From a virus: a stretch of DNA of 20,074 bases. Positions 1,026-19,844 of the stretch are shown here, piece after piece. The DNA lies in the IMG/VR virus record IMGVR_UViG_3300010885_029176, positions 1 to 20,074 of that record. One strand, written 5' to 3'. Position 1 is the stretch's first letter; every line of letters starts with the position of its first letter. The notes under the pieces were generated by a model. It made no database searches. It saw nothing but the letters and a program-made list of their open reading frames with translations, and was not told the origin of the DNA. The translations under genes were made by a program, and so were the position numbers.

Positions 1026-4000
1026 TTACGGTGTTATAGTAACTGTAACAGTTCTTCCCGTTAATGTCGCCACCGCTCCAGGATTGGTTTGAGTTCCTTT
1101 TAAACTTACTAATTTAGAACTATCCCAAGTTGTTGAATAAGTCGCCAAATCACTCAATATATTATTAATATTAGTTGTACTTATTGTAGAATTTCCTCGT
1201 ATTTTTAACTGATACATTGTAGTTGGCCAAACACGACTAAAAGTATACCCAGTAATTGTGTTATTACCTTCTATTGCAATATTGAACGCCGCCGATGAAA
1301 AATCTGAAATACTACCATCAATAGTATTATTACCTATAATAGTTACATTAGTTAAATTTGGCGGTAAAAAAGACACGTTACCCGTTATAGTACCAAGACC
1401 TGTCAAATACATATCAGTTAATCCATTTGGTAAATCCGCCACATCACCACTAATAGTATTATCACCAGTTACATATAAATATGTTAATCCCATAGGTAAC
1501 CCTGAAGTGTCACCACTAACTGTATTATCACCACCAAGTATTAAATTTGTTATCCCTGTAGGTAATGACGATACGTTTCCACTTATTGTATTACCAGGAC
1601 CAAAATAACCGTCCATAGTATATATTTGACAATAAGTTAATCCTGTTGGTAATCCTGAAGTACTGCCACTTATCGTATTTTTACCACCAATTGCGAGTAT
1701 TGTGATTCCTGTGGGTAATCCTGTGGTATTACCACTAACGGTGTTATCACCTTGTAAATTTAAATAAGTTAAACCAGATGGTAGTCCTGTAGTATTACCG
1801 CTAATCGTATTATCATAAATTGAAACATATGTCAGTCCTGAAGGTAATCCTGATGTATTTCCACTTAGTACAGTGTTACCATTATTATTAAACATCTGCA
1901 AATTTAGAAGATTAGGTGGTAAGTCTGTTGTGTTTCCTGTTAGATTAGATTGACTAATAACTAAATAAGTCGGAGTTCTTGGTATTTGTGAAATCAAACC
2001 ATCTAATCTAACCTCATAGTTCAAATATGAATTATTCAGATTATCTAATTTGGTATATTCTGAAGTATCAATAACTACATTAATACCCGAAGAACCTGTC
2101 ACTGTTGTGGAAATAGCAAATCTTGTAATATCAGATAAATCAAGTGATTTTACTGTGATTAATCCATTATACAAACTACTATAAACATGATTAGGTGTAT
2201 GGTTTCCTGCCGCAAAAGTACTCACGTTACCATCACCCCAATCTACTAAGTATCCGTATGAAGTTGACTGAATTTCTGTGATTGTAATAGCACTAACATT
2301 TACTGCTGTCATCCTAAATGACTGTAAAGGTAAACTAGGTGTCGGAGTAATAGTAGGTGTCACTGTTATAGTTGGCGTAATAGTTACTGTTGGTGTTGGA
2401 GTATTTTCTGGAGTTATCGTAGGAGTTGGTGTAACTGTTGGTGTTGCTGACGGTGATGGTACCCCATAACAACAAATGTCATAATCAATTCTAATTGCAA
2501 CACTAACAGTATCCGCAGATAGTGTTCTAGCACAATCCGTATTTAAACTAATTGAATTTGTATTCGCATTTAGAACTATTGAACCAATACCAGGAACTCC
2601 ACTTAATAAAGCATTTAACGCATCAACATATTGTTGGTCTGTAGGATATACAGATAAAGATGTTGTAGCAAAAAAGTTACTAGTGAACGCCGAACTACCA
2701 ACATTTAATAACAAATTAAATTGAGCCAACGTTAATTTACAATTTATTTCACCAATCGTTAAGTCTTGATATCCTTGATTTAACATTTGTTGAAATCCTG
2801 TTTTTGTTCCTGTTCTTTCTGTAAAAATACTATCACAAATATTGAAAATCTGATATGATGTATTAGAAGTTCCACAAAGTATTTGAGTTGTTTTAATTAA
2901 ACTACAATTATTACTATCAGTAACTGTTACAGAATATGTTCCAGCGGTAAGTCCTGTAACATATATACCATCCTGCAAACCGACATTAGGTGACCAAGAT
3001 ATTGTAAATGGCGGTGTACCCTTAGTGATTACCGCAGTTATTGTCCCTTCATTACCCTTACCACAGCTTGTATCAATTAAACTAAATTGGACATCATTAC
3101 TACTTTTTATACTAACTGATTTTATTTGTTTGCAACCATTAACATCAGTAACTGAAACTGCGTATAATCCACTTGATAAATTATTAAACGTATATGCAGT
3201 AGAATTTAAGGTAATTGATTGTCCCGGTATTTCATAGGTGTATGTACCGTTAGCACTTGTCTCAACTCTAATAGAACCATTTAATAACCCACATGTTGTA
3301 TCAATATACGTTGTAGTAATTGTAAAAGCGTCTTCGTTAATAACGGTAATGTCGGTCTCATAACTACAAGTACTTGGGTTTGTTATTTTAATATGATACG
3401 TACCTGTTGGTAAGTTATTAAATTGAGCGTTAGAATTTATAGAAATAACTCTAGTATTGCCTGAAGTATCTGTTAATGTATATGTATAAGGTGTATTTCC
3501 CCCTTGAACAAATACATTAATAATTCCATTACTACTTCCACATACAGAAGGAACCGATGACGCAGCGACAAATGTAAACGCATTTGGACTTGATAATGTT
3601 ATTGTTCCTGATGTGGTACATAATCCCGCATCAGTAACCGTTACATTATATATTCCTGACGATAGTCCGGTAAATGTTGTATTATTTGAAAAGTCAATTT
3701 TTGTATCCCCATTTGATAAAACATAATAAAATGGTGCAGTTCCTCCACTCAAATAAACCGTGATTTGTCCGTCCGCTTGAAAGCAATTTGGAGAAACAGG
3801 TAATAAATTAGTTATACCCGGTGGTTCAACATCTATAACTGTTGCTTGTTTAGTGACAGAACATCCTCCAGAATCAAGTACTGTTACAGTATAAACACCC
3901 GCAGTTAAACCGCTAATAGATGAGGTTGTTTCATTATTACTCCATAAATAAGTATATGGTGAAACTCCTGTTTGACCTGTAATATATATTTTTCCAGAAG

Positions 4001-4556
4001 GGCCTGAACATCTTGAATTATTAACAACAAAAAACCCATAATCTAATTGTCCTGAATCCAAAACAACATTAGTAGATGAGCGTCCGCTACATCCTCCATT
4101 ATCAATCGCCTCCACATAATATGTATCTGCAGACAGTTGAACAAAAGGATAAAATCCAACAGAGGAAGTACCTGAAGTTACATATCCATTAGTATTACTA
4201 TATAAATAATAATCAACTATATTAACTGATGTTGTTGCTGTTGCGGTTAAAACCCCATTTGGTAATCCACAAGTTGAATTTATCACACTTGTCTCTAAAC
4301 AAATCCCTGAAGAAATGGTTAATAAAACAGGTTGTTCTTGTGGTGAAACAGAAGAGTCAGTAACTAATATTTGATAAGTACCTACCGATAAACCAGTTCT
4401 AGTTGATGATGTAAAAGAAACATCAGTTCCTAAATTAGGTATTTGCCAATCAATAATATATGGCGATTGTCCATCAATTGGTTCTATATATAAAGCACCT
4501 GTACCTATATTTAGGCAATCCCCTGTAACCGTTGTTATAATATAATTAATAGGCAT
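1026..4556 (-). CDS. Mosaic tail adhesin: SprB-like modules, Pro/Thr linker, PKD-like domain and LRR array
   Basis: An 1176-residue protein, the last and most modular gene of the tail run, starting at a TAATG overlap with the preceding gene. Residues 1-560 hold seven modules of about 75-85 residues. Each ends in a GxYxVxVTDxxGC-like motif (near residues 59, 143, 220, 301, 385, 463 and 539), and most begin with a Cys-Gly-x-x-Asn-Gly-like turn; this is the pattern of the SprB repeat family of Bacteroidota surface adhesins. Residues 561-697 match the C-terminus of the 983-aa neighbour. Residues 699-742 are a Pro/Thr linker. Residues 745-815 look PKD-like (VDWGDGNVS, 771-779). Residues 858-1129 are about twelve 22-residue leucine-rich repeats of type LPxGLTxLxLxGxNTISGN. 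There is no catalytic motif, signal peptide or membrane segment. I infer a fibre or receptor-binding protein whose shared domain anchors it to the baseplate. It could instead be a non-essential decoration protein. Confidence 0.72.
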   Translation of the reverse strand: MPINYIITTVTGDCLNIGTGALYIEPIDGQSPYIIDWQIPNLGTDVSFTSSTRTGLSVGTYQILVTDSSVSPQEQPVLLTISSGICLETSVINSTCGLPNGVLTATATTSVNIVDYYLYSNTNGYVTSGTSSVGFYPFVQLSADTYYVEAIDNGGCSGRSSTNVVLDSGQLDYGFFVVNNSRCSGPSGKIYITGQTGVSPYTYLWSNNETTSSISGLTAGVYTVTVLDSGGCSVTKQATVIDVEPPGITNLLPVSPNCFQADGQITVYLSGGTAPFYYVLSNGDTKIDFSNNTTFTGLSSGIYNVTVTDAGLCTTSGTITLSSPNAFTFVAASSVPSVCGSSNGIINVFVQGGNTPYTYTLTDTSGNTRVISINSNAQFNNLPTGTYHIKITNPSTCSYETDITVINEDAFTITTTYIDTTCGLLNGSIRVETSANGTYTYEIPGQSITLNSTAYTFNNLSSGLYAVSVTDVNGCKQIKSVSIKSSNDVQFSLIDTSCGKGNEGTITAVITKGTPPFTISWSPNVGLQDGIYVTGLTAGTYSVTVTDSNNCSLIKTTQILCGTSNTSYQIFNICDSIFTERTGTKTGFQQMLNQGYQDLTIGEINCKLTLAQFNLLLNVGSSAFTSNFFATTSLSVYPTDQQYVDALNALLSGVPGIGSIVLNANTNSISLNTDCARTLSADTVSVAIRIDYDICCYGVPSPSATPTVTPTPTITPENTPTPTVTITPTITVTPTITPTPSLPLQSFRMTAVNVSAITITEIQSTSYGYLVDWGDGNVSTFAAGNHTPNHVYSSLYNGLITVKSLDLSDITRFAISTTVTGSSGINVVIDTSEYTKLDNLNNSYLNYEVRLDGLISQIPRTPTYLVISQSNLTGNTTDLPPNLLNLQMFNNNGNTVLSGNTSGLPSGLTYVSIYDNTISGNTTGLPSGLTYLNLQGDNTVSGNTTGLPTGITILAIGGKNTISGSTSGLPTGLTYCQIYTMDGYFGPGNTISGNVSSLPTGITNLILGGDNTVSGDTSGLPMGLTYLYVTGDNTISGDVADLPNGLTDMYLTGLGTITGNVSFLPPNLTNVTIIGNNTIDGSISDFSSAAFNIAIEGNNTITGYTFSRVWPTTMYQLKIRGNSTISTTNINNILSDLATYSTTWDSSKLVSLKGTQTNPGAVATLTGRTVTVTITP
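1170..1985 (-). repeat. 22-residue leucine-rich repeat array (coding)
   Basis: About twelve consecutive units cover residues 858-1129 of the 1176-aa protein. Most are exactly 22 residues, for example LPTGITNLILGGDNTVSGDT (998-1017) followed by LPMGLTYLYVTGDNTISGD (1020-1038). One unit (969-997) is stretched to 29 residues by a Gly/Tyr/Phe-containing insertion (MDGYFGPG). The DNA is visibly repetitive, with recurring blocks such as ggtaatcctg. The spacing of Leu-Pro and the Asn-Thr-Ile core resembles 22-residue FNIP-type LRRs more than the classical 24-residue kind. Confidence 0.75.
2331..2462 (-). repeat. Pro/Thr-rich linker (coding low-complexity tract)
   Basis: Residues 699-742 of the 1176-aa protein consist almost only of Pro and Thr, with Ile, Val and Ser, in a TPT-x-TPT rhythm (for example TPTITVTPTITPTPS). 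It joins the SprB-like and shared-domain half to the PKD/LRR half and probably forms an extended stalk. The DNA is a degenerate tract of gtaatagt/ggtgt units. Confidence 0.85.
2877..4556 (-). repeat. Seven SprB-like modules (coding)
   Basis: Residues 1-560 of the 1176-aa protein. Approximate modules are 1-82, 83-168, 169-243, 244-322, 323-407, 408-485 and 486-560. Shared features are an early Cys, a CGxxNG-like turn in several copies, a GGxxPYxYxW/L strand (for example SPYTYLWSNNETTSSISGLT, 199-218), and the closing GxYxVxVTDxxGC. The copies are strongly diverged, so this is not a recent tandem duplication. Confidence 0.72.
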
Positions 4557-7507
4557 TAACTACAACTAATTGTAAAATTCAATCCAACGTTTAATTGGAT
4601 TTGTTTATTTGTAAATTTAGGTTCGCATCCTGAATTAGAAACATACAAAGTATTTCCACTAAGGAAATACGTTAAGTCAGCATCAGTTAAATTTGTCACA
4701 TAAGTTTGTACCGCACCGCTCCATTGAGAATTAGTCGGTGTTTGTAATGTTCCATATCCTGTAAAGAATTTTTGTTGTAATAAAACAGTACTATCCAATC
4801 TTAAATCAATATACCAATCAGTGACTAAAGAATTCAAATCACATGTTAATGAATTAGATGTGACATAATTTGTCACAGTTTGATTTAATATATCTTGGAA
4901 TGATTGTACTGTTGATGACCCTCCATTCCAAGGATAAATAGGACATTCAATAGTTTCATCAATACAATTATATAAAAATAAATTACCATTCAACGTACAA
5001 GGTATACACGGTACCGGTAATATTGCACATCCTCTTTGAATTCTATATACAAATTTTTGTCTATGAAATATAGAATTTTCATACTTAACTCCGGCTAACC
5101 ATATTGTGGTCGCTGGTATCATTTGTTCAACTAATCTAATCCAATAATCACCTAACCCATTAACATAATCCATCATTGAACGATAATTAAAATTATCATT
5201 CGGTATTCCGACAGTTTCTTGTGATTGTAAGTAATTCCAAAATATAGACTGTAATGTTAAATATCCACTTGTTTTACCATCAGAACTAAATTGTCTATCT
5301 CTAACATTTATCATGTTATTCCAAAATGTTTGAGCAAATTCAAAGAACGATTTTTTATTTGGTTGTGGATTAATGAATGTTGAATCAACCCCTCCTGGTT
5401 GTGGATAAGGGGAAGTTAAACCAGTACTAGGTATTGGGTAATCATACTTTCTTGACATATACCAAACATCATATGCCAACCCTTGAGCAGGATTTAAAAA
5501 TAAATCAACATTTTTAACATTTAATACAAATTTTTCATTATCAACAAAATAATAAGCATCATATTTAGAACCTCCATTACCTACTCTAAGTCCTGTGTCT
5601 GTCACAGGCCAACTTTTTTTATTATCGGGTATTCTTAAAAGTCTATAACCTGTATTCAAATATGGAAAATATCTATATCTATCCAAATATTTTTGTCCAT
5701 AAGTAAATTGTTCAAATTCAGTTTGAACATTAAAATTTTGTCCCGTAAATACACTATTAGTATAATTAATTTTTTGAGGACTTTGGTGGTCTTTAACTAG
5801 TTCAAACCATCCCGCCCCTTTCTGAAAGAAATAATCTTGAGTATCTTCAGGTGACTTCGGATAACCATAAGAATCCACAGGAAAATCCGCCAATGTCACA
5901 TCAACATCAGTTATCGTAGTTTGTGTTGTAAAGGCTGAATATACATTACCATAAATAGTAAATGTTGTAGTATCAAATACGGGCATCTCTTCAACATATG
6001 TACCACCAGATATTTGAGCGTACCTCATATTAAAATCCGCCATGTTAATTTTCTGACCTGCAATATATATATTTTCATTAAATTCTATTAAAGCCTCCGG
6101 TGCACCAATAAGTCTTAGTAAAAATTCTATAGACTTTCTTGTACCTTTTGACTTAAACAAATAAGCAGAATTTAAAATTAAATTTCTATAAAATTGATAA
6201 TTTAACTCTGTTGGTGTTGACGCTCTAGAATATCCCTCAAATTCAATTTTACTATTATTACCAAAAACTGAACCTAAGAAATTTTCATTAGTAATTGGGG
6301 AAACGTTTATTTTCCATCCAATTGTTTCTGCCAAATTTTTAAGTAATTGTGATGGTATATCATTTTTAACCGTATAATTTACAGAATTCATATAAGCCAA
6401 TCCATCTATAAACTTTTTAACCTCATCAAAACTTCTACCATAGATACTTAATATTTTTTGAACTCTTTGGTCTTCAGTATCAAATTCTTTAAACGATTCA
6501 GTAGTTAAAAATCTTGTTATTAAATTTGTTTTTGATTCATCAAATGCAACCGCAATCTCATTTAAAGAATTTAAATAATTATCAAATAATCTTGTCCTAA
6601 TATCTAAATTCCAAATCCCATCTATTGGCCAAGTCACATTAACAAAACTAGTAAATAAAACACCATCATCTGATTGTTTTGGTACTTGGAACGTTGCCGT
6701 GTATTTAGGGACAATCATTCTATTTAATAAAAACTTTTCAACCTCATCAAACGGTTCTATTAATGATTTATCCGCATAAAAAGTATTTGGTCTAATAACT
6801 AAAGTTTCGGTTGTTTCCATTTTTCCTGAAAATGGTTGACCAAAAACAATAATTTCTATAAAACCTGAATATAAACTACTGGATGGTGTAAAATGATAAA
6901 TAGGAAATTCTTTATCTCCTAAAAATAAAGAAAACTTATTATACTCAACAGTTAAATTTCTTAATGGAGATACCTCAAATTCTTTTAATGAAATATTTCT
7001 GGTTGCATTAACCGAATAATCAATTCCAAAAGGATTTGTCAATTTAGTCACATCAATTTTAAATGAAGTAACATCTTCAATATTGTCATAATCAATATCA
7101 ATCGCGGTATTGTCAGTAGTAAAATCAGAATTAAGATTATATACTTCTAATGCAGAAGGAAAATAATTTATAATTTTTTGAACTGATGTTGACATTCTTT
7201 TAGATAACGGACCATAAATATTAAATTTAGTTATCTCACTTAAATCAAAATTAGGATAAACTCTAAATTCTTTAGCAATAATTGCCTTAGATTCTAAAAC
7301 ATTAGAAACATTTAATGTGTCTAAAGTAATTGGTTCAGAAAAAGAACCAATATTAAACTCTCTATAAACTTTTTCTGTTATAGTTGTTGTGAATTGAAAA
7401 TTACCTTGCGTTAAACCACCTCCTTGGACTAATTGAAATCCAACCAAATCATCTGAAAAAGGTCTACCATTAGCACCGTCAGGATATTTAATAATCGTTT
7501 TACCCAT
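4556..7507 (-). CDS. Baseplate protein with a gpI/TIGR02242-like tail domain (possible gp7 counterpart)
   Basis: A 983-residue protein that starts and ends at TAATG overlaps. Its core resembles the tail-protein domain found in P2 gpI and in contractile injection systems (TIGR02242 type). The first half is ILSIYGRSFDEVKKFIDGLA (352-371), followed by the PSQLLKNLAETIGW stretch (385-398). The second half is YLFKSKGTRKSIEFLLRLIG (449-468), with the family's Lys-Gly-Thr-Arg turn. Downstream, LVEQMIPATTIWLAG (792-806) and the basic RQKFVYRIQRG (816-826) precede a Cys cluster (C827, C834, C837, C848, C855). Residues 837-983 are related to residues 561-697 of the following protein. In T4 and P2 baseplates gpI corresponds to part of gp7, which joins gp6 in the wedge. 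I therefore infer a wedge role linking to peripheral proteins. The N-terminal 340 residues are not recognised. Domain recognition is by eye, so the family assignment is moderate. Confidence 0.62.
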   Translation of the reverse strand: MGKTIIKYPDGANGRPFSDDLVGFQLVQGGGLTQGNFQFTTTITEKVYREFNIGSFSEPITLDTLNVSNVLESKAIIAKEFRVYPNFDLSEITKFNIYGPLSKRMSTSVQKIINYFPSALEVYNLNSDFTTDNTAIDIDYDNIEDVTSFKIDVTKLTNPFGIDYSVNATRNISLKEFEVSPLRNLTVEYNKFSLFLGDKEFPIYHFTPSSSLYSGFIEIIVFGQPFSGKMETTETLVIRPNTFYADKSLIEPFDEVEKFLLNRMIVPKYTATFQVPKQSDDGVLFTSFVNVTWPIDGIWNLDIRTRLFDNYLNSLNEIAVAFDESKTNLITRFLTTESFKEFDTEDQRVQKILSIYGRSFDEVKKFIDGLAYMNSVNYTVKNDIPSQLLKNLAETIGWKINVSPITNENFLGSVFGNNSKIEFEGYSRASTPTELNYQFYRNLILNSAYLFKSKGTRKSIEFLLRLIGAPEALIEFNENIYIAGQKINMADFNMRYAQISGGTYVEEMPVFDTTTFTIYGNVYSAFTTQTTITDVDVTLADFPVDSYGYPKSPEDTQDYFFQKGAGWFELVKDHQSPQKINYTNSVFTGQNFNVQTEFEQFTYGQKYLDRYRYFPYLNTGYRLLRIPDNKKSWPVTDTGLRVGNGGSKYDAYYFVDNEKFVLNVKNVDLFLNPAQGLAYDVWYMSRKYDYPIPSTGLTSPYPQPGGVDSTFINPQPNKKSFFEFAQTFWNNMINVRDRQFSSDGKTSGYLTLQSIFWNYLQSQETVGIPNDNFNYRSMMDYVNGLGDYWIRLVEQMIPATTIWLAGVKYENSIFHRQKFVYRIQRGCAILPVPCIPCTLNGNLFLYNCIDETIECPIYPWNGGSSTVQSFQDILNQTVTNYVTSNSLTCDLNSLVTDWYIDLRLDSTVLLQQKFFTGYGTLQTPTNSQWSGAVQTYVTNLTDADLTYFLSGNTLYVSNSGCEPKFTNKQIQLNVGLNFTISCS

Positions 7508-8415
7508 TATTGAGTTATGTTTGTAAAGTTTTTACTATAATCTATATTATTTCCTCTATCTTGTCTAACCTCATATAACAAAGAATTAGATTGGTCTCTA
7601 ATTTCATACAAGTTATATTGTTTGTAGATATTATTGTTTGAGTCATAAATAGTATATATACCATCTTGCATTGATTTAGTTTGATTACCATACAAAGCCA
7701 ACGCTAATGTTGATATATCGTGTTCAACAATTTCAATATCTATCGTAATTGGATTAAAAAAAGTATTAGTTATTATTATTTTTTGTGCAGGTTGTCCTAT
7801 AAATGGGGTCGCGTTTGGTTTGTTTGTCGGAGATGATGATGGTGTTAATGTACAAAATATTAAATTTGTAACGGCATCAACATATCTATATCTAATCGCC
7901 TTTTGAGATGTATTTGTTAAATTTTGTAAAACAGGTTCACAAAAAAAGTTAGAAGTTACTATTCTAAAAAAGTTAGGTATTTTAGTACCGTCACTATTTA
8001 AGTATTCAACCCTAAATCCAACAAGTCCTTGTGATACAAATTTATTTCTATATTGTGTCGGTACATTATTTAAATCAATTACAATACCTTTAACGTTAGG
8101 TAGCGCCGATAATACACCACAATCAGTAATTTCCGTTCTTATTTGAGCCGGCTTAACATATAAAGTGTAAATACCAATTTTATTAAATTCATTTGCCGGT
8201 AATCTTAAATTATAAAGACCCCCTAATATTTCAATATTGGCATTACCGCCAGTATTATTATTATTATAATATGGCCTCAATATATTTAACGTATCTAACT
8301 TTTTTAATATAAAATTATCTGTAACATCCCTAGAAGGAGTATAATTTAATATTATTTCAACATCTTCAGGTGATACGTCAGAAGGTCTTATTGTTCCGTA
8401 GGTTCCTATTGCCAT
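7507..8415 (-). CDS. Putative tail/baseplate structural protein with a short Pro/Ser/Thr linker
   Basis: A 302-residue protein I do not recognise. It starts at the ATG at 8413-8415 after a 38-base gap and ends in a TAATG overlap with the 983-aa gene. The N-terminus (GTIRPSDVSPEDVEIILNY, 7-25) is acidic, followed by an Asn-rich stretch (51-55) and beta-rich sequence without a signal peptide or membrane segment. A linker of about 17 residues (TLTPSSSPTNKPNATPF, 189-205) sits directly after C188 and recalls the much longer Pro/Thr tract of the 1176-aa protein. It splits the protein into an N-terminal part of about 188 residues and a C-terminal part of about 97. The last 50 residues (DGIYTIYDSNNNIYKQYNLY, 251-270, and on) are polar and aromatic, which suits a subunit contact. 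A structural role is inferred only from position and composition. Confidence 0.6.
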   Translation of the reverse strand: MAIGTYGTIRPSDVSPEDVEIILNYTPSRDVTDNFILKKLDTLNILRPYYNNNNTGGNANIEILGGLYNLRLPANEFNKIGIYTLYVKPAQIRTEITDCGVLSALPNVKGIVIDLNNVPTQYRNKFVSQGLVGFRVEYLNSDGTKIPNFFRIVTSNFFCEPVLQNLTNTSQKAIRYRYVDAVTNLIFCTLTPSSSPTNKPNATPFIGQPAQKIIITNTFFNPITIDIEIVEHDISTLALALYGNQTKSMQDGIYTIYDSNNNIYKQYNLYEIRDQSNSLLYEVRQDRGNNIDYSKNFTNITQ

Positions 8416-9623: not shown

Positions 9624-10429
9624 TACGGATTAATATATTCATACCATTTTATTGGGTTAGAGCTATCTCCAATTAAGACATCATATCCCGTGTTTATATC
9701 ATAAACCTTATATGTATAATTACTATAATCTAAAATTACTTTATAATAAAAGTATTTTTCTTGGGGAAAATTAAATTTATTAATACCTGTTAATGTTGAT
9801 TGCGGTCTATTCATCATTTTAATAAAAATCCCTGTCTTCGCATCAAAAAACTTTGCGGTCATATAAAAAGTATTAATATTTAAAAATGATGTATTTTTTA
9901 ACCAGTAAATAAAAAACCCTTCTTTATCACCAACAAAATCCAATTTCATTACAGGTGTTTTAATATCATTCACAGTATATCCGACTGTCGTTGCTGATGT
10001 AACTCCTTGTTGTGTTGGTAATATTAAGGTAACATAGTTGGTTTGTTTAGTTAAATCAGTAGTATCATATAAATCTAATTTAAAAAATGACTTTTTAAAA
10101 GAATTACTATAGTAATAAATTTCCGTAGGAGTAAATCCTTGTATAGGATATGATGTTAACCAAATTGTATTTGCGCTGGTAGCACCTGATGGAGCAAAAT
10201 AAAATTCATAATTAATATCTGTAGTCAATGAATTTACATTCTGAGAATGTTCAAATCTTGCAACTTCAAAATCTTTATCTTGATTGATAACACTTTTAAT
10301 TGTTTGTTCTTCATATTCAACCAAAGAGTCACTTCTATCAAGCAAATCCCAATTCATTTCAATTGGTATATTGATTTCTTTATCTGTATTTGTTGTAGAT
10401 AATAATATTTTATATTTATTCACAATCAT
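9623..10429 (-). CDS. Putative baseplate structural protein, N-terminal paralogue of the 582-aa protein
   Basis: A 268-residue protein that begins 14 bases inside the end of the 582-aa gene and ends in a TAATG overlap. It is not recognised as a known family. Its N-terminus shares a spaced pattern with the gene before it: NTD (14-16), IP (21-22), DRSD (31-34), then TTDINYEFYF (70-79) with SGAT (82-85). The remainder is rich in Tyr, Phe, Asn and Lys, predicted beta-rich by eye, with no membrane segment, signal peptide or catalytic motif. The C-terminal stretch KYFYYKVILDYSNYTYKVYD (around 225-245) looks like beta hairpins. The position between baseplate genes and the tight overlap make a structural role the simplest reading. 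It could be an accessory subunit derived from the 582-aa gene. Confidence 0.6.
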   Translation of the reverse strand: MIVNKYKILLSTTNTDKEINIPIEMNWDLLDRSDSLVEYEEQTIKSVINQDKDFEVARFEHSQNVNSLTTDINYEFYFAPSGATSANTIWLTSYPIQGFTPTEIYYYSNSFKKSFFKLDLYDTTDLTKQTNYVTLILPTQQGVTSATTVGYTVNDIKTPVMKLDFVGDKEGFFIYWLKNTSFLNINTFYMTAKFFDAKTGIFIKMMNRPQSTLTGINKFNFPQEKYFYYKVILDYSNYTYKVYDINTGYDVLIGDSSNPIKWYEYINP

Positions 10430-12164
10430 CAGTAATCGGGTCTGCTATTGTAGATATATTTTGACCAACATTTCCTTCAGGAATTAGTCTAAATATAATC
10501 TTGGTTGATGGATAATGAGTTCCATTTAAAAAAGGATAATTAACCCCTTTTCCTGACTCGTCAATAAATCCGTAAGTATACATGTCTCTCCAAATAAAAC
10601 TATTTTTGTAATTTGAGTAATACGAATAATATGGTATATTATCAACTTCTTTTAATGAACCCTCCTCTAAATAATCAGAATAAACCCTTAATTGTATTAA
10701 ATTATGCGGTTTATAATAATATCCGTTTGGATTTGTTGTTGCCGATTGAATAATAAATAAATTATCATTAAATGATATCTTATGATACAACTGAGAAATG
10801 ATTCTTTCTTTTTGTTCAAATTGATTAAACTCACAATAATCCCCATTTATTGTATCACCACTTTTTAAATTTTGATTGTAATAAAAGGTAAACCCTCCTG
10901 GTTTAATATATGACGCTGTTGGTATTGTAGTTAAATTAACACTAGAATTAGTGTAATCCCAGTATGATGATACTGATGGACCCAAATTGTATTGATAACC
11001 TTCTCTAATTGAAACATTATTCGCAATTGGTTTATTCATCCACCCAAAATAACCATTATTTATAATAGTAATAAACAACTCCGATAATGGTCTATTCAAA
11101 TTATCTCTATATTCTGATATATCAATATCACTTGAGAATGACAATAGATACGATTGAGACCCTTCTTTTTGTGTTATTCTAGAAACTTTATCGGGCGTTA
11201 ATGTACCAAATTCATATTTTCTTTTAACATTAAAAATATTTTGTTCAAATCCACATTTTGTTAGGATTGAATCACTCACATTCGTTATTATTTTATGTTT
11301 TCTAACATAATATTTAGACATTGTTTCTGCAGAATTATTAATATCAATAATTCTTTTAAATGTCCCTTGAGCCGAATTAAAAAACGTATTCCCTGTAAAT
11401 CCATTATTATATAAGTTAAAAATATATTCGTCTGAATTATACCCATAATTACCTAACGAATATACTTGAAAAACTTTACTCCCATTATATCCAGTCCAAC
11501 CAAAGTTAAACTCTATTTGAACAAACTCACCAACACTCAAATTATGTTCAACAGGACAAACAAAAGATATCAAATTTCTACCTTCGTAATTAAATGGATT
11601 AACAACATAAAAAGGAATTCCAGTACCACATATCCACGTTAGAGTTGTTGACGAGTTTAAATTATATTGTAATACTTTATTGGATTCATTCTCATACGCA
11701 TAACTCACATATTGAGTCCAATTATATGTTGACGCACTTTTATTAATAAAACTAATATGTGGTGAAGTTGTGCCTGAATTTATAGTATAACCAGAAACAT
11801 TATTATCATTTCTTATAAAGTCAAATTCATAATATTGGGGATATCCAAACCAATTATTAGTATTGAATGAAGATTCACTATTAACATAATACAGATTATT
11901 CCTAAATGGAGCATATCCAAAAGCCCCCGTTGTTCCACTATAAGCATTATAAAATAATAAGTCCATATTAGTTGTTAATCTGAAAATATTAGACGCTTGT
12001 CTTTCATTGTCAAATATTTGACTCAAATCAACAATGTCACTTCTATCAAATTCATCAATCTCTTTTTGATTATTGACTAAAGGTATATCTACAGTTAAGT
12101 CAGTATTTATTGCTGACTTATATCTTTTAGAACCTAATACTATCGTTGTGTTAATATCACTCAT
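10416..12164 (-). CDS. Putative baseplate structural protein, 582 aa
   Basis: A 582-residue protein whose ATG (12162-12164) lies 8 bases inside the end of the giant gene. No known family is certain. The N-terminus carries the pattern shared with its neighbour: NTD (20-22), IP (27-28), DRSD (40-43), and TTNMDLLFYNAYSGTTGA (64-81). At 202-217 the sequence VCPVEHNLSVGEFVQI resembles the HxLSVGDxVxI turn repeated in many phage baseplate and tail proteins. It is Tyr/Asn-rich throughout, with no membrane or secretion signal. In T4 the genes after gp6 and gp7 are gp8 and gp9; the position could match gp8, but T4 gp8 is only about 334 residues and I see no gp8 motif, so I do not use that name. A structural role is supported by position and composition. 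Confidence 0.62.
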   Translation of the reverse strand: MSDINTTIVLGSKRYKSAINTDLTVDIPLVNNQKEIDEFDRSDIVDLSQIFDNERQASNIFRLTTNMDLLFYNAYSGTTGAFGYAPFRNNLYYVNSESSFNTNNWFGYPQYYEFDFIRNDNNVSGYTINSGTTSPHISFINKSASTYNWTQYVSYAYENESNKVLQYNLNSSTTLTWICGTGIPFYVVNPFNYEGRNLISFVCPVEHNLSVGEFVQIEFNFGWTGYNGSKVFQVYSLGNYGYNSDEYIFNLYNNGFTGNTFFNSAQGTFKRIIDINNSAETMSKYYVRKHKIITNVSDSILTKCGFEQNIFNVKRKYEFGTLTPDKVSRITQKEGSQSYLLSFSSDIDISEYRDNLNRPLSELFITIINNGYFGWMNKPIANNVSIREGYQYNLGPSVSSYWDYTNSSVNLTTIPTASYIKPGGFTFYYNQNLKSGDTINGDYCEFNQFEQKERIISQLYHKISFNDNLFIIQSATTNPNGYYYKPHNLIQLRVYSDYLEEGSLKEVDNIPYYSYYSNYKNSFIWRDMYTYGFIDESGKGVNYPFLNGTHYPSTKIIFRLIPEGNVGQNISTIADPITDDCE

Positions 12165-15100
12165 TTAATGTGGTTTCACCAATATATTTAGTGTAAAATT
12201 TATTTATAGCTGTTTCACCTTTCTTTAATCCAAAATAAAAATACCATGGAGCACCTGCTAAAGCGGGATTTGGATTTATTGTCGCACCTGTTAAATAAAT
12301 AGGTGATGCTTCAATTGTTGAATTAACCCAGCTTGATGGTGTTGTTCCTGTTGCAATAAAACTAACGTCATTTGTATTAGCCGTTGCCCCCACATTTAAA
12401 AAATTATCAGGACTAACATAATTAATTATTGTATAAACATTACCTACAATTAATGGTGTACCAACAGTTAGTGTAATAGGGGCTGATTGAGCAAAAAGAT
12501 ATCCTCTTGAATTATATTCGTTTGGTAATAATGAACCGGCTCTAGGATAATCACTAGTTAATCTATCTAACGATTGATACTTTTGAGCGTAAAATCCATT
12601 AACAGGTGGTGTTGTCACCCAATCATTAGTTTGTTTTCCAAAAAGTGTATATCCTCCGGTTTGAACTTTCCATTTATAATTTGGAACTATTTGTGATTTA
12701 TTAGGTATATAATCATAAACAAAAGAATTTGTATTTGTGTTATATCTTATTATTCTCATTGGGGATATAAAATCCCTAACTTGCATATCTTCAGTTGTTG
12801 ATTCGAAAAAAATACCCATCATTATATTATTAGCACCGAATCCCGCCGCGATTAATGCAGGATTAGTTCCCGTACTATCATAATAATCGGAATCAAAAGG
12901 TATCACACCTATTTGACTATTAATTGCTGAAGATTGAGCAAAATCGGCATCAACTCTATATCCTTTAGAACCACCACGACTAAAAAGTTTTTTAATCATA
13001 TCAGTACTCAATAATGAACGCCAAAAATTAGTATCTATCACTCTAATAATTGAAAAAAAGTTTATCATATCAGATAAATCAGTATATGATGTTTGAGATA
13101 TTTTTTTCATATTATACCCATAATAATTAGGACTCAAAATTATTTCTTTTAAGAATTCATCTCTAGGCCCTAAATTCATTATTGTTGTTGGAGTTTTTAT
13201 ATCCGAAATATTAGAGCCTCTATCCGGGTCACCGCTAGACGGAGCACCAACAAATCTATAAGAACTTAAAAATTTTTCAGCCGGAGATGAACGATAATAA
13301 AAATTATTTGTTTCATATTGTAACATAACAGTTTCAAAAGGAAACTTACGTTTATAAACTTGATTTAATTTATTATAATACGTATCAACCTTAAAAGGAA
13401 ACGCATATAAATTACCATTAACCCAATTATTAACAAAAACATTGGATAAAACACCTTGACACAGGGCATAGAAAAATCTAAATCTTAAAACATATTCAGA
13501 CCATCTTGTAATATCATTATCCGATTTCGGGTTAAATAATCCTTTTAAGGGTTCCCTAACAAATACATAACATCCATTTTCAACCGCATCGGTATTTGTA
13601 CAATTACTACTGACGCCAAAATTTATACCATTTCCTGAATAGCAATTAAACTGAACCATTCCCGCACAATCAAAAGTATTCAATACCGTTCCATAAAATG
13701 CGTTGTTCCCCGATAAAAAATCACCCGCATTATACTGAGGAGAACTAATTCCTCCACCAACCGTCAAAACACCACTATCGGTAAAGATATACATACTTTG
13801 TTTGGGGTTTTGATTCATCATTGCAACATTATTATAATTAGTATACGCAGTACTACCTGTTGAAAATAATAACAACCCATCCGATGATGGTAATCTATCA
13901 GACCTCATAACAATATTATTTTTATCCGACATGTTTGTCGTATATCCAGTTGGATATATAAAACTAAAATAAAGTTCTTCTGGTATAGTTTGATTTATTG
14001 GATAACTACCATAACAACCATCGCTCACACCTGCAATTCCCGGTTTTGTCATATACATAAAAGTACCTCCAACTAAAGAATCTTGTGTTGAATATTTTTG
14101 AGGGCTATTAGTACTCGAAAACAAAAAATTATTTGGATTAGAAACCACATCACTAGAACCATTATTATTTGTTGATGGAAACGCTTTTCCACTAATACTT
14201 GTATTTCCAGCATTTGTAGGGTCAATCACATAATTTAACGTTGTGGTATCTAAAGCCGAGTAATATCTTGTTAAATTTGTTGTATATCCTGAATATTGAT
14301 TACTTGGTGTGAAAAAATATGATGGATTCCAAAGTTTTTGCCCATTATTAACCGTTAAATTATTATTCGCTAATCTATGAATATAACATAGTTCATTACC
14401 AATCGAACCACCGATGGTTGGGTCAATATTTCTAATCGGTATATTTAATCTAAGTGGAGCATTAATTTGAACACCATTTATATTACTAAACCCTAAAAGT
14501 TTTCCCAGTCCTACTTTTGTTGGATATTGCGGAGAATATGGGTCAACCCCTCTTTGAGTGATATAAATTACCGAATTATTATCTATATAATCTATGTTTT
14601 TTACCGGATGCGGGCAAGTAAATAATTTTTCAGGATTAGTTGGGAAATAACTAAGACAAAAATACGTTTGATACCATGTTCTTTTTATAATAGTTGTTGT
14701 ACTTTCAATTATATCCGCTAAAGTATTAGGTATTGGACTAGAAGCATGTAAATTTCTAAACTGAGTAATTGTCATTCCAGTAACCACTTGGAAATATTCA
14801 ATATCACTAGGATATTGATACGTTTTTTCGTTAGTACTTGCACTTGCGGTTAGAGCATATGTTACGGGAAGCTCGTTACCAACTCTACTATTTGTTTTAC
14901 CATAAATTATAGTTACCGAAGTTTTTCCAGTGTCTGTTGTCCCAGTAATTGATTTAGTACCAAAACTATTTAGAGTACCCCCTGTTATATTAGGGTCCTT
15001 GGAATTTTTTGGACCCACAAAACTAAACATGGACCCGGTACTTAAATCACCATACGTACCCGCCTGCCCAATAAACACAACAACATTATCTAAATGTTGT

Positions 15101-17439
15101 TTATTACTATTTGTTGGTATATTTGGTTCTATTTGTACAGATATTTGATTAGTCCCGTTATAATAATTCGCCTTTGTATTAAACTGATTTAATCTCTCCC
15201 CAAATGGCATATCCGCAGTATATAATGCTGAATAATAATCATTCGCAGAAATTTCAAATGTAGTATATAACTGCACTCCATAGTTTGAGTTATATTTTTT
15301 TAGATTACCGGATAATAATTGAAGAACTAATATATAATCATAATCTTTATTATAACATCCGTTACCTACAAAAAAATTAGGGTCTTTGACTAATTTTGGA
15401 AAATCAGTATCAAATTTAACTTCTAAGGCATCTGAGTATACTCCTAAATTAGCAAAATTGACCAATAAACCACTATTACTACCTGCGTTTGCGGTTGAAG
15501 ATTGTGCCGACGATAACGTGCTACCCCCATTATCATCACCACTACAATCACAAACATCACAATCAGGATATGTAATCATCGGTAATTTTAGTGGTGGAAA
15601 ATCATAATCTATTAATCTTGCAAAAACAATTATAAGGGCGATTGCAATTCCTAACCATAAAAGTAGCATTACTGAATAGTATATTACACCCGCAACCCAA
15701 ACTGTCGCACCAAAACCTATTGATGGTGTTGCCGCCGCAATTATACCTAATGTCGATTGAACTATATTATATCCCGCCCATAATTCTAAAAAAATAAAGA
15801 AAAATACTTTTAACCAACTTTTCCAAAGATAAGCTATTAAACTATATAAAATTATTAAAGGTAATCCAATAATACCCAAAATAATCAATAAAAAATTAAA
15901 AACTCTCCATATTAAACTAGTATGAAAAACCCCATCATTTACGGGATACCTATTAGCAACATCTTCGCAGGTATCATCGTCAATTCTTTTAATACCAATA
16001 AATTTTTCTTTATTATTTGCGATTTTATAATTATCAATAAATGAAGATACTGTATAAACCTTATTGTACTCAAATTCATAAAAATAATCTTCACAATTTA
16101 TTATATCTTGAATGTCAGGATTAGTAATACTCACACTACCATTAGTATATGCTGACCAATCTAAACTAAACGCATACGATTTCTGAAAATCTAACCAATC
16201 AGGGTCAGTTTGGTAATTCGGATTAACAAATTGAATAATCGTTGGGTCAAATCCTCCATTCCATCCTCGTTCCTTAACATTAGGTACTAAATAATATCCT
16301 CTTTTATAATCTTCGGACACACTCGTACTTTGTTGCCATTTAATCTTGAATCTATATTTAGCCTTTGTTGGAACTCCCACTGATGGGTCATTAGATAAAA
16401 CCTGTTGTCCGAATTCATTTGTATACACATAATCCTGATTCATTGGTAAATCAAATAACCAAGCACCCGCAGAATCTATTAACTTACCACCATTTGGTAA
16501 ATCAGCCCTTTCTATAATAGGTAACCCATTAGAATCTCTATAAATTGATTGTGTTAATCCAATAATTTCACCAGGACCTGTAATTAACTTACACAAATCA
16601 CCCGTCGCTTTTTGTGCAATACCGTTTGATTTAACCGCAGATTTTTCATTTGAACTCATTAGAGAACCCATAAAAATTGATGTTGGTAATATATTAATAT
16701 TGGCCTCGTTTGTTAAATCAAAATCACTTCTTGTTATCCCAATTTGACAAACATCTTTTTCACCCCAAAATGGAACAATTTCAATTGTTTTATTAATCAC
16801 AATAATTTGTGGTAATTGATTGAAATTAGATGATGATTTAAATTTTACACCATCAAACTGTTCTTCAGTTGCAACACCCATCCTTATTAAATCTTGAGGA
16901 GTCAACGAAAATTCACCAATGTCCGATAAATCAACATTCATCACAATTGTTTGAGTTCCAACAGGAACACCAAAAATTAAAAAGTCACCACTATCGTTGG
17001 TTGTAACAGTATACTTATAATACTTGTCATAAAGTTCTACAACGGTTTGATTTACTAAAGCATCTAATCTTGTTGGAAAAGTACCTGTCGGTACGTGATT
17101 AGTATATGATGGAACATATGGTAATAAATTATATCTATAACCATCTTCATTAGTTTGTTCTAAATTCTTATAAGGATATATGGAAGATATTACAGGATTA
17201 TCTTCATCTTCGGGTTTTATCGGAATAAAAATTGAAAGTTTGGTATTTGGAATACCGTATCCGTTATTCGCAAAAACTCTTCCGGCAATAACCCCATAAT
17301 CAGAACACATCCTAGTATAAACATCAGATTGTCTTATTTTTAAAGATAGAACTTCCAATTGCTCAAAATCTTGTTCTACTTTAATAACAATATTTTTGTC
17401 ATCCCCCGGCGTTGTTCTTATTCTATATGATTGACCCAT
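12157..17439 (-). CDS. Giant baseplate-associated protein with Ig-like N-terminus and internal membrane cluster
   Basis: A 1760-residue protein, the largest in the window, starting at ATG 17437-17439. An AAAGG lies six bases upstream, one of the few clear ribosome-binding sites here. Residues 46-172 look like a carboxypeptidase-regulatory/Ig-like fold: GVIAGRVFANNGYGIPNTKL (49-68) and later TTNDSGDFLIFGVPVGTQTI (146-165). Residues 505-610 contain about three strongly hydrophobic segments, unusual for a tail protein. A CDVCDC cluster (627-632) and a Gly/Ser/Ala-rich hinge follow. Beta-rich sequence fills the rest. Residues 1664-1710 hold a YTIxNY...DNFLNVGA...VSFIATGTTP module of a kind common in phage structural proteins, and the end carries PWYFYFGLKKGETAINKF (1731-1748). 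The place just after gp6 corresponds to gp7 in T4 order (about 1032 residues), but no gp7 motif is evident. I infer a large wedge, spike or membrane-interacting protein. Confidence 0.65.
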   Translation of the reverse strand: MGQSYRIRTTPGDDKNIVIKVEQDFEQLEVLSLKIRQSDVYTRMCSDYGVIAGRVFANNGYGIPNTKLSIFIPIKPEDEDNPVISSIYPYKNLEQTNEDGYRYNLLPYVPSYTNHVPTGTFPTRLDALVNQTVVELYDKYYKYTVTTNDSGDFLIFGVPVGTQTIVMNVDLSDIGEFSLTPQDLIRMGVATEEQFDGVKFKSSSNFNQLPQIIVINKTIEIVPFWGEKDVCQIGITRSDFDLTNEANINILPTSIFMGSLMSSNEKSAVKSNGIAQKATGDLCKLITGPGEIIGLTQSIYRDSNGLPIIERADLPNGGKLIDSAGAWLFDLPMNQDYVYTNEFGQQVLSNDPSVGVPTKAKYRFKIKWQQSTSVSEDYKRGYYLVPNVKERGWNGGFDPTIIQFVNPNYQTDPDWLDFQKSYAFSLDWSAYTNGSVSITNPDIQDIINCEDYFYEFEYNKVYTVSSFIDNYKIANNKEKFIGIKRIDDDTCEDVANRYPVNDGVFHTSLIWRVFNFLLIILGIIGLPLIILYSLIAYLWKSWLKVFFFIFLELWAGYNIVQSTLGIIAAATPSIGFGATVWVAGVIYYSVMLLLWLGIAIALIIVFARLIDYDFPPLKLPMITYPDCDVCDCSGDDNGGSTLSSAQSSTANAGSNSGLLVNFANLGVYSDALEVKFDTDFPKLVKDPNFFVGNGCYNKDYDYILVLQLLSGNLKKYNSNYGVQLYTTFEISANDYYSALYTADMPFGERLNQFNTKANYYNGTNQISVQIEPNIPTNSNKQHLDNVVVFIGQAGTYGDLSTGSMFSFVGPKNSKDPNITGGTLNSFGTKSITGTTDTGKTSVTIIYGKTNSRVGNELPVTYALTASASTNEKTYQYPSDIEYFQVVTGMTITQFRNLHASSPIPNTLADIIESTTTIIKRTWYQTYFCLSYFPTNPEKLFTCPHPVKNIDYIDNNSVIYITQRGVDPYSPQYPTKVGLGKLLGFSNINGVQINAPLRLNIPIRNIDPTIGGSIGNELCYIHRLANNNLTVNNGQKLWNPSYFFTPSNQYSGYTTNLTRYYSALDTTTLNYVIDPTNAGNTSISGKAFPSTNNNGSSDVVSNPNNFLFSSTNSPQKYSTQDSLVGGTFMYMTKPGIAGVSDGCYGSYPINQTIPEELYFSFIYPTGYTTNMSDKNNIVMRSDRLPSSDGLLLFSTGSTAYTNYNNVAMMNQNPKQSMYIFTDSGVLTVGGGISSPQYNAGDFLSGNNAFYGTVLNTFDCAGMVQFNCYSGNGINFGVSSNCTNTDAVENGCYVFVREPLKGLFNPKSDNDITRWSEYVLRFRFFYALCQGVLSNVFVNNWVNGNLYAFPFKVDTYYNKLNQVYKRKFPFETVMLQYETNNFYYRSSPAEKFLSSYRFVGAPSSGDPDRGSNISDIKTPTTIMNLGPRDEFLKEIILSPNYYGYNMKKISQTSYTDLSDMINFFSIIRVIDTNFWRSLLSTDMIKKLFSRGGSKGYRVDADFAQSSAINSQIGVIPFDSDYYDSTGTNPALIAAGFGANNIMMGIFFESTTEDMQVRDFISPMRIIRYNTNTNSFVYDYIPNKSQIVPNYKWKVQTGGYTLFGKQTNDWVTTPPVNGFYAQKYQSLDRLTSDYPRAGSLLPNEYNSRGYLFAQSAPITLTVGTPLIVGNVYTIINYVSPDNFLNVGATANTNDVSFIATGTTPSSWVNSTIEASPIYLTGATINPNPALAGAPWYFYFGLKKGETAINKFYTKYIGETTLNE
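15610..15927 (-). other. Multi-pass hydrophobic segment within the 1760-aa protein
   Basis: It encodes residues 505-610. The visible hydrophobic blocks are about 509-539 (VFNFLLIILGIIGLPLII core), about 544-570 (VFFFIFLELWAGYNIVQS core) and about 580-607 (VIYYSVMLLLWLGIAIALII core). They are separated by short loops with Lys/Trp (KSWLK) and Pro/Ser (ATPSIGFGAT). Length and composition fit three transmembrane helices or one long hairpin plus a helix. Confidence 0.75.
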
Positions 17440-17534: not shown

Positions 17535-19376
17535 TTAACTAATACTTACTGATTGGAGATTCTTGACTTTAACCCTAATATCTTTATTAGCAAATCGTAT
17601 TTGATATATTTGATTAGGCATTGCAAATATAGTCCCATCAACCACACCAATTTCTTTTGTTTCAGAATCAATATAAGACATAGATGTTTGAGATGATGAG
17701 TATTGTCCTCCAACTTTGTTAAAAATTTGTAAGCTTGTTACGGATATAACACCATTTTGTGATTGTAATATTCTATTAAGTTCTGACACATTAACATTTT
17801 GTCCTAATTGTCTTGTTGCTGGATTAAAATAAGTAGATATTTGATTTATAATTGAAGAAACAATTACACCCTGATTTTGACTAGCATCCAATACTATTGA
17901 TAAATCAATTCCCAAATCAATAACTTCGGCACTTTCTACAGAAATATAATCATTCAACATTCTATAGTTAGACAAATATTCCGCAATATTACCTAATAAA
18001 GTATTAGATACTATTGCTGTTAATGAACCGTTGGCATCATATGACAAAATTTTAACTTTAACTTTGTTATCTTCTTCCAAAATTGCCACTTTAGCAGGTG
18101 CTCCAAAATTTGATGGCATTTTTCTAATCAAAGCTTCATAATCATTTACGGTGACCGCTCTATTCTGAGAAGCAAAATTAAATGAAATAAAATTTCTAAC
18201 TTCCTCTAAAGTAGGTAATCCTGAACCTCCAATCGCTGCGGTAACATTATTACATCTTAAAGAAGTAATTACAGATGTATTAGTTTCATCAGAAGGGCCA
18301 TTTACAAAGAAATAAACTGTACCTATTTGATTAATAACATTAACTCCAAGATTTGTTCCTAAACCACCGCCAATTCTATATTGTACAAATAATGTTGTAT
18401 TTGGTTTTAATGTGCGACCCAAAGAAAAGTTATTTAAATATGTTTGGATACTTTGAACATTGATTCCCGTTCTAGCAAACTCTCTTAACTGGTCTTCGGC
18501 CGATGTATTACCACCGCCAAAAGTCATTTTCATAAATCCTTCAGGAGTATATTCGGTCATGAACCTATTATCGGTTGAAATATAAGTCCCTACTTTAACT
18601 CCTGGCATATCCGTAGGTTTTGTTGGGTCTTCAATAAAAACTCTATCTTGCGCTAACGCCTCCACTTCATACCATTTCCCATTTAAAGTTAAAAATTCTT
18701 GAACTGTTGGTACATTAGAATAGTTTGTTCCATCTTTTTGAATAACTGAAGTAACTCCAAGTATATTTTTTTCAGGTAAAAATAACTCATAAAAAGGCTT
18801 AACATCACCAGGAGTTATTGTTTGTTTAAAAACTTTTGTAATACCATTAACTACAATTTCTCGTTTTGTTATAGTATAATTTACCAATGTATTATTACCA
18901 TTAGTATTAGGACGAATAGTTCTATTTGGAAAACCTTCAGAATTGAAGGGTGATGTAAAATCAATATCATTAACAGTTTCAAATACTTGTCCCGCACCAA
19001 TAACTTGACTTCCCTTTCTTAACAAACCCAAATATCTTTCATCAGGTCTATCTCCATTAGCCGGAACTGTAATTGAAAAATCAACTAAAGCAACTGAAGG
19101 TCTTTGTCCCGGTAATTTTAATCCATAAGTTCTGGCAATATTATATATTGATGATTTTTGTTGTGCGTATTGTAATACCGTTTCTTGAATACTTCTATCA
19201 ATATGGTAATGTAAATTATCTGATACCGCAGCATTCAAATCCAAGAACATAGAAAAAACAGACGCATCGTTAAAATTATCTATTAATTCTGGATAATATG
19301 TTTTAACAAAATTTATTAATTCTGTTCTTATTGATTGAAAATCCCTTACGGAATATGATATTCTTTTTTCTCCCAT
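17535..19376 (-). CDS. Baseplate wedge protein, gp6/J-like
   Basis: A 613-residue protein starting six bases after the gp25-like stop. The N-terminus is highly typical of the T4-type gp6 group in marine myoviruses: RDFQSIRTELINFVKTYYPE (11-30), LIDNFNDASVFSMFLDLNAA (31-50), and HYHIDRSIQETVLQYAQQ (56-73). The middle and C-terminal parts fit the baseplate J-like fold: an Asn/Gly-rich beta region, then VNDYEALIRKMPSNFGAPAK and a LGQNVNVSELNRILQSQNGV element near the end. Length is close to T4 gp6 (about 660). In the known structure gp6 dimers form the inner iris of the baseplate and bind gp7, gp53 and gp25. Order directly after gp25 supports the call. No truncation or frameshift is seen. Confidence 0.88.
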   Translation of the reverse strand: MGEKRISYSVRDFQSIRTELINFVKTYYPELIDNFNDASVFSMFLDLNAAVSDNLHYHIDRSIQETVLQYAQQKSSIYNIARTYGLKLPGQRPSVALVDFSITVPANGDRPDERYLGLLRKGSQVIGAGQVFETVNDIDFTSPFNSEGFPNRTIRPNTNGNNTLVNYTITKREIVVNGITKVFKQTITPGDVKPFYELFLPEKNILGVTSVIQKDGTNYSNVPTVQEFLTLNGKWYEVEALAQDRVFIEDPTKPTDMPGVKVGTYISTDNRFMTEYTPEGFMKMTFGGGNTSAEDQLREFARTGINVQSIQTYLNNFSLGRTLKPNTTLFVQYRIGGGLGTNLGVNVINQIGTVYFFVNGPSDETNTSVITSLRCNNVTAAIGGSGLPTLEEVRNFISFNFASQNRAVTVNDYEALIRKMPSNFGAPAKVAILEEDNKVKVKILSYDANGSLTAIVSNTLLGNIAEYLSNYRMLNDYISVESAEVIDLGIDLSIVLDASQNQGVIVSSIINQISTYFNPATRQLGQNVNVSELNRILQSQNGVISVTSLQIFNKVGGQYSSSQTSMSYIDSETKEIGVVDGTIFAMPNQIYQIRFANKDIRVKVKNLQSVSIS

Positions 19377-19382
19377 ATAATA

Positions 19383-19844
19383 TTAAATATTAAGTATTAC
19401 AAAATCTCTTGAATTAAATACATCGTCTGTTATCGCATAATCAATTCTAACCTTTGCTGTGTATGGTTGAGTACTTGAATTCGGCACATTAAATTCTTTA
19501 TTAATAACATTTCCTGCCGTAGTAACAACATTAACTTCTTCTTCATCTGATGCCGCCTTTATAGAAATATTAGTTATTTTAAGTTGTGGCATGTATTTTT
19601 CACAAGCCTCCCTAATATCCGACTCAATATTATTAAAGGTTGGACTATCCATTGGTTCAAATATATATTCATATAATCTTGTACCAAAATCAGGTAAAAA
19701 ATATCTTGAACCTTTTCTTGTTAAGAGTAAATGAATTAAATCAGTTCTAATTTCATCATTAGCGGTTTGAGTTAATCTTAGGTACTTACCTTGATTTGAA
19801 ATATTAAAGGGAAACGCTATACCGTATGTTTTACCATTTGACAT
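19383..19844 (-). CDS. Baseplate wedge protein, gp25/GPW family
   Basis: A 153-residue protein, slightly longer than T4 gp25 (132). It carries the diagnostic core of the GPW/gp25 lysozyme-like family: LLLTRKGSRYFLPDFGTRLY (39-58), followed by EYIFEP (59-64), then an acidic helix with IREACEKYMPQL. The family seeds sheath polymerisation and sits between the gp6 dimer and the sheath; despite its name it has no lysozyme activity. The start ATG follows the DUF5522-like stop by 11 bases, in an AT-rich spacer with TATTTATT on the coding strand. The close link to gp6 downstream matches contractile-tail gene order widely. Confidence 0.92.
   Translation of the reverse strand: MSNGKTYGIAFPFNISNQGKYLRLTQTANDEIRTDLIHLLLTRKGSRYFLPDFGTRLYEYIFEPMDSPTFNNIESDIREACEKYMPQLKITNISIKAASDEEEVNVVTTAGNVINKEFNVPNSSTQPYTAKVRIDYAITDDVFNSRDFVILNI

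Follow-up and report, generated by a model that had tools for sequence, protein, structure and literature searches.

A variable hydrophobic block framed by invariant cysteines in a baseplate-locus protein of large contractile phages: a candidate membrane-embedding cassette

The window analysed here is the whole 20,074-nucleotide stretch of a virus record from IMG/VR (IMGVR_UViG_3300010885_029176, positions 1 to 20,074). As indicated by its list of open reading frames, a frame of 1760 codons on the minus strand contains a hydrophobic block; the encoded protein is called BIG here and its parts and neighbours are collected in Table 1. The order gp25 - J - BIG - 582 - 268 - 389 - 302 - 983 aa was conserved. 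All of the 74 long homologous loci had J beside BIG; the 582-aa frame was found in 70, gp25 in 68 and the 983-aa frame in 58 of them. A sheath family was encountered in five out of six long contigs, the 192-kb contig of a close relative (L003) included genes for portal, DNA polymerase, a UvsX-like protein and ribonucleotide reductase, and one BIG homologue was located on a contig of 326 kb. Carriers of BIG are large contractile phages with a T4-like organisation. In the sheath-to-baseplate region of the L003 contig, no other large frame displayed comparable hydrophobic stretches; one frame of 535 aa had a single stretch, at its N-terminus.

The last complete frame of the window (1026-4556) encodes 1176 aa with SprB repeats (PF13573), a weak internal match to a T9SS sorting domain and a leucine-rich-repeat-like stretch (aa 848-975), and is probably a fibre-like protein. 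It was present in 20 of the 74 homologous loci, many of which stop short of its place. Its SprB repeats are a hint that the host may belong to Bacteroidota. The 302-aa frame (7507-8415) belonged to no known family and was nearly constant in length across loci (297-302 aa), with variable neighbours. The tail sheath protein at L118:5760-9110 (83760-87110 on the L003 contig) was, with ~1117 aa, far above typical size and showed its best sheath match at the C-terminal end. At L074:15129-16031, a 301-aa frame with a Fib_succ_major domain (E 8e-38) was inserted among the baseplate-cluster frames; domains of this kind are commonly found in Bacteroidota and Fibrobacterota.

Table 1. Features of the BIG locus in the window (BIG, name used here; aa, residues of BIG)
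Feature	Position	Strand	Evidence or remark
gp25-like baseplate wedge protein	19383..19844	-	PF04965
gp6/J-like baseplate wedge protein, directly upstream of BIG	17535..19376	-	PF04865, phrog_219
BIG, 1760-aa baseplate-locus protein bearing the block	12157..17439	-	open frame and IMG/VR relatives
N-terminal conserved beta-rich domain, aa 1-500	15940..17439	-	near-invariant C45, C231, C283, C449, C491
G273, N-side site of co-varying Cys pair, Cys lost in window phage	16621..16623	-	
C491, invariant, directly ahead of block	15967..15969	-	Cys in 128/128 non-redundant homologues
Hydrophobic block (variable cassette), aa 505-612	15604..15927	-	found in 128/128 homologues
Predicted helix 1, aa 509-541	15817..15915	-	AF2
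Predicted helix 2, aa 543-570	15730..15813	-	AF2
Predicted helix 3, aa 578-610	15610..15708	-	AF2
Frozen motif LPMITYPDCDVCDC (CxxCxC), aa 619-632	15544..15585	-	Cys conservation; median dN 0 in close pairs
Ser/Gly/Asn-rich linker, aa 633-660	15460..15543	-	pLDDT below 50; varies among homologues
Fast-evolving middle region, about aa 661-1249	13693..15459	-	highest median dN (0.19) among compared regions
C-terminal conserved domain, about aa 1250-1760	12160..13692	-	C1258, C1266, C1280, C1290, C1327
P1367, C-side site of co-varying Cys pair, Cys lost in window phage	13339..13341	-	
582-aa frame overlapping the end of BIG, no known family	10416..12164	-	same order in homologous loci

BIG displayed no match in Pfam, PHROGs, NCBIfam or the PDB, and no relatives were found in INPHARED phages. 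Three alignment-led scans of IMG/VR each yielded at least 563-584 confirmed relatives, which ruled out an oddity peculiar to one phage; the homologue set used below comprised 128 sequences after reduction at 90 % identity and was drawn from at least 560 IMG/VR loci. No relatives were found in PLSDB plasmids or in 84,980 bacterial and archaeal genomes, and a cellular injection system or prophage was thereby ruled out. A membrane-anchored injection system would lie in a cellular genome devoid of capsid genes, and the L003 contig carries a portal. Comparison phages were chosen as nearest by J. Flavobacterium immuto, Microcystis Mel-JY01 and PA5oct were rejected as isolate counterparts, having matched by profile in gp25 and J and not in BIG or the frames beyond it, and the large proteins following J in immuto and Mel-JY01 were without a hydrophobic block. 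In the uncultured LR756508, gp25 and J matched by profile and BIG and the frames beyond it did not.

The 19-residue Kyte-Doolittle mean of BIG peaked twice, reaching 2.83 in the stretch from aa 513 and 2.81 in that from aa 589, and none of the other frames of the window exceeded 1.53. Such a lone 19-residue peak is insufficient by itself to rule chance out, and it was indeed within chance for the composition of BIG (best of 5000 shuffles, 3.12). The mean over the 106-residue block, however, was 1.67 versus a best of 1.04 in 5000 shuffles of the same protein. Together with conservation in the 128 homologues, this ruled out a chance hydrophobic stretch. The CxxCxC motif arose in just four out of 5000 shuffles.

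A hydrophobic block was present between the positions of V504 and P620 in every one of the 128 homologues, with a best 19-residue hydropathy of at least 2.0 throughout (median 2.66); ahead of it (residues 1-480), the maximum across the same set was 1.61. Block length ranged from 49 to 150 aa and helix number from about one hairpin to four helices, the shortest blocks resembling one hairpin that starts and ends on the same side. A rough transmembrane scan, whose biological-scale values are approximate and in which likeness to a membrane segment rests on hydropathy, gave mostly two or three segments per block (range one to six, with two and three equally frequent), at least one in every block and none in the residues preceding it in any homologue. 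Net charge of the flanks was -0.3 and +1.4, and a positive-inside signal was not clear. Position 533 was histidine in 118 out of 128 homologues and serine in the window phage. Eighteen homologues displayed a tetra-Cys form, in which a CxxC...C...C module replaced the second half of the block. This module, CxxC-(8-22)-C-(3-10)-C, was seen in L005, L035, L037, L071 and 14 others, on scattered tree branches.

Residues 1-720 of BIG, which were 44-64 % identical to 75 non-redundant homologues, were modelled with AF2 as a monomer (76 sequences, mean pLDDT 76.9, pTM 0.60). The model displayed a beta-rich domain (pLDDT about 80-95 over most of aa 50-460) and three long helices (pLDDT about 75-90), flanked by stretches of low confidence (about 50 or below) that contain C491 and the CxxCxC motif. 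Being set between such linkers, the helices lay outside the soluble beta domain in this monomer model. The C-terminal half was modelled with a pTM of 0.57 and, as searched with Foldseek against the PDB, had no solved relative and no known fold. Apart from the block, both half-models consisted mostly of strands and coil. With TM-scores near 0.1, the Foldseek matches to pilins and SdrD-type beta domains, obtained with the N-terminal half, were discounted as homology.

The initial annotation had placed a hydrophobic segment and a CDVCDC cluster (aa 627-632) within aa 505-632, that is 15927-15544 on the minus strand. These coordinates were right, and both features were confirmed. The three helices that it described hold for the AF2 model of the window protein and not for the family, given the range of helix numbers above; likewise, its Ser/Gly hinge exists (about aa 633-660) with neither length nor sequence conserved among homologues. 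Conservation had been set beforehand as a test, and the block was never absent nor non-hydrophobic in the 128 homologues. Burial within a globular domain was looked for as well, and the AF2 monomer put the block on linkers outside such domains.

Four near-invariant cysteines frame the block, namely C491 before it and C627, C630 and C632 (128/128, 128/128 and 126/128 non-redundant homologues) after it, the latter making up CDVCDC. The recognition of C491 as a fourth frame cysteine goes beyond the initial annotation, as does that of 13 near-invariant cysteines across the whole of BIG, though relatives are 30-50 % identical. C449 and C632 were considered as a pair on account of joint loss and dismissed, as their losses fall in different sequences. 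Sites 273 and 1367, in turn, lie 1094 residues apart, and cysteines occupied both in 94 homologues and neither in 25, with no mixed case among 119. Their state changed eight times on an N-terminal tree and five times on a C-terminal one, each time at both sites; once restricted to well-supported branches, the count fell to four and three independent pairs, too few for significance. From this covariation, the two sites probably form a bond, or share a ligand, that links the N- and C-terminal domains. Joint gain and loss suggests that the conserved ends of BIG probably touch, leaving the block and the fast-evolving middle to loop out.

Regional rates were compared between close relatives (18 pairs). 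Residues 1-500 had a median dN of 0.053, the C-terminal domain 0.074 and the block 0.126, the motif at aa 619-632 and the middle region being the extremes (Table 1); in the latter, homologues also differed by large insertions and deletions. The block had accumulated ~2.4 times the amino-acid change of the N-terminal domain at broadly similar dS. The frame thus appeared frozen while the block kept its hydrophobicity and not its sequence, a pattern expected of a lipid-facing segment. Divergence of the block was also uneven: in the window/L001 pair dS was 0.03 in the block versus 0.39 in aa 1-500, and the L098/L099 pair displayed the reverse, its block having diverged far beyond its surroundings, which points to local exchange. 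Block class (long, mid, short or tetra-Cys) changed at least 26 times on the tree of aa 1-490, where the window (long block) and L005 (tetra-Cys block) were sisters.

Recurrent changes of class and local exchange in both close pairs would also be expected if the block mainly bound a particular host envelope protein, its swapping then reflecting host range or escape from exclusion. A role of this kind has been put forward for the C-termini of tape measures and for superinfection exclusion. A lipid anchor that is under loose constraint and drifts fast would leave the same pattern, however, and these phages have no known host, receptor or exclusion protein; we regard binding of a host protein as highly improbable.

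According to another explanation, the helices never meet lipid and six or three copies pack at the hub, between wedges or against a tail protein, stapling the baseplate. Solubility is the norm for virion proteins, the AF2 model is that of a monomer, and the frozen flanking cysteines and the histidine of 118/128 blocks look as for a specific contact. Against such packing, the block is free to vary in length, helix number and sequence and is swapped on a near-constant backbone, and for a soluble bundle its mean hydropathy (0.5-2.1 over up to ~110 residues) is high. An oligomer core is on balance unlikely. The alternative left by the initial annotation, a membrane device or a helix bundle at the hub, was thereby narrowed, the device being favoured over the buried bundle because the block varies freely and is swapped on a conserved backbone.

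A membrane could also be entered at another stage, with the block inserting during synthesis into the producing cell's inner membrane and baseplates being built there and freed at lysis. In support of this, the targeting machinery should be drawn to such hydrophobic stretches as the chain emerges, and the shortest blocks look like one hairpin whose ends lie on one side. Anchored contractile systems are known as well (PMC8894136, PMC12237407). A plain anchor would not predict cassette swapping, however, and the flank charges gave no clear orientation. An even helix number would keep both large domains cytoplasmic, and the equal frequency of two and three segments (rough counts) speaks against this explanation. 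We consider assembly at the membrane unlikely.

Tentatively, and with doubt and belief in near balance, we read the block as a cassette that embeds in a membrane at the infection stage, and BIG as a baseplate protein in the position of T4 gp7. Free variation and recurrent exchange combined with constant hydrophobicity and a fixed cysteine frame point to a lipid-facing cassette, unlike a packed core. From its genome position, BIG would be a structural baseplate protein of the virion. Its N- and C-terminal domains would be in mutual contact, as cysteine-pair covariation suggests, and would bind the remaining baseplate, as synteny and conservation suggest. The helical cassette would loop from this core on flexible linkers between C491 and CxxCxC, ranging from one kinked hairpin-like unit of 30-35 residues up to about four helices, and the frame cysteines would probably clasp the ends of the loop via metal or disulfides. 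The likeliest moment for the cassette to embed in a membrane would be infection, when the baseplate opens on contact and may expose it; it could then dock in or open the host envelope for tube and DNA.

Several points count against the membrane-embedding reading. Baseplates remain outside the cell, which makes it hard to see by what route their helices would get to the inner membrane, and alpha-helices seldom enter outer membranes from outside. The near-invariant cysteines and the histidine conserved in most blocks suggest a more specific role than that of a greasy anchor, and the exposed position of the helices derives from a monomer model with a pTM of 0.60.

The passage of contractile-phage DNA through the inner membrane is not yet settled, and parts acting on membranes have usually been sought in the tape measure or in ejected proteins. 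A membrane-like helix block exchanged like a cassette suggests a tail part that touches a membrane directly. At least several hundred uncultured phages carry such a conserved, exchangeable, membrane-like cassette with a fixed cysteine frame in a baseplate-cluster protein, and a defined block of ~110 residues between two fixed landmarks makes the question testable. A bolder and rather doubtful proposal is that an abundant lineage of contractile phages holds an interchangeable membrane-penetrating cassette in the baseplate and not in the tape measure, with a fixed cysteine clasp, exposure on opening and helix sets fitted to host envelopes. The BIG family was absent from the libraries searched, and naming it would bring annotation to a great many phage contigs from the environment.

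Among predicted structures, A0A8S5LA66 (Myoviridae sp. ctPuP5, metagenomic, BFVD) resembles BIG in predicted fold (Foldseek E 1.3e-44), with 34 % identity where the two align; it is a family member, itself uncharacterised. BIG resembles T4 gp7 in large size and in its place in a contractile phage genome, right behind gp25 and gp6/J; it is likewise rich in cysteines and likely multi-domain with linkers. T4 gp7 has three linked domains and eight cysteines, domain A swivelling about 45 degrees outward upon baseplate opening, and a hydrophobic block is not mentioned in the passages concerned (PMC3004832). Profile searches with both halves and phmmer returned no gp7 chain, and gp7 was absent among the best 50 Foldseek matches of both halves against the PDB. 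In the lambda tail-tip protein gpL, a conserved four-cysteine cluster binds [4Fe-4S], and the same source describes no membrane-like block (PMC10721106). BIG, known from sequence alone, also has four conserved cysteines, with unlike spacing.

With tape measure proteins, BIG shares a membrane-like region inside a long tail protein. Tape measures are long and helical and lie inside the tube; BIG, in contrast, is beta-rich and encoded after J in the gp25-J baseplate cluster, not as a mostly alpha-helical product near tube or sheath genes. The tape measure of the lactococcal siphophage TP901-1 has two hydrophobic regions with three putative transmembrane segments each, and deletion of the first region abolishes infection (PMC5099701). 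A membrane helix in the distal part of a contractile tail-like machine is also found in Cis13 of the thylakoid-anchored injection system of Anabaena, where it is needed for membrane anchoring (PMC8894136); as compared by description, Cis13 is a tail-fibre-like trimer of a cellular system with one such helix, whereas the segments of BIG are membrane-like by hydropathy. As these two precedents indicate, parts of this sort can be used in infection or as anchors.
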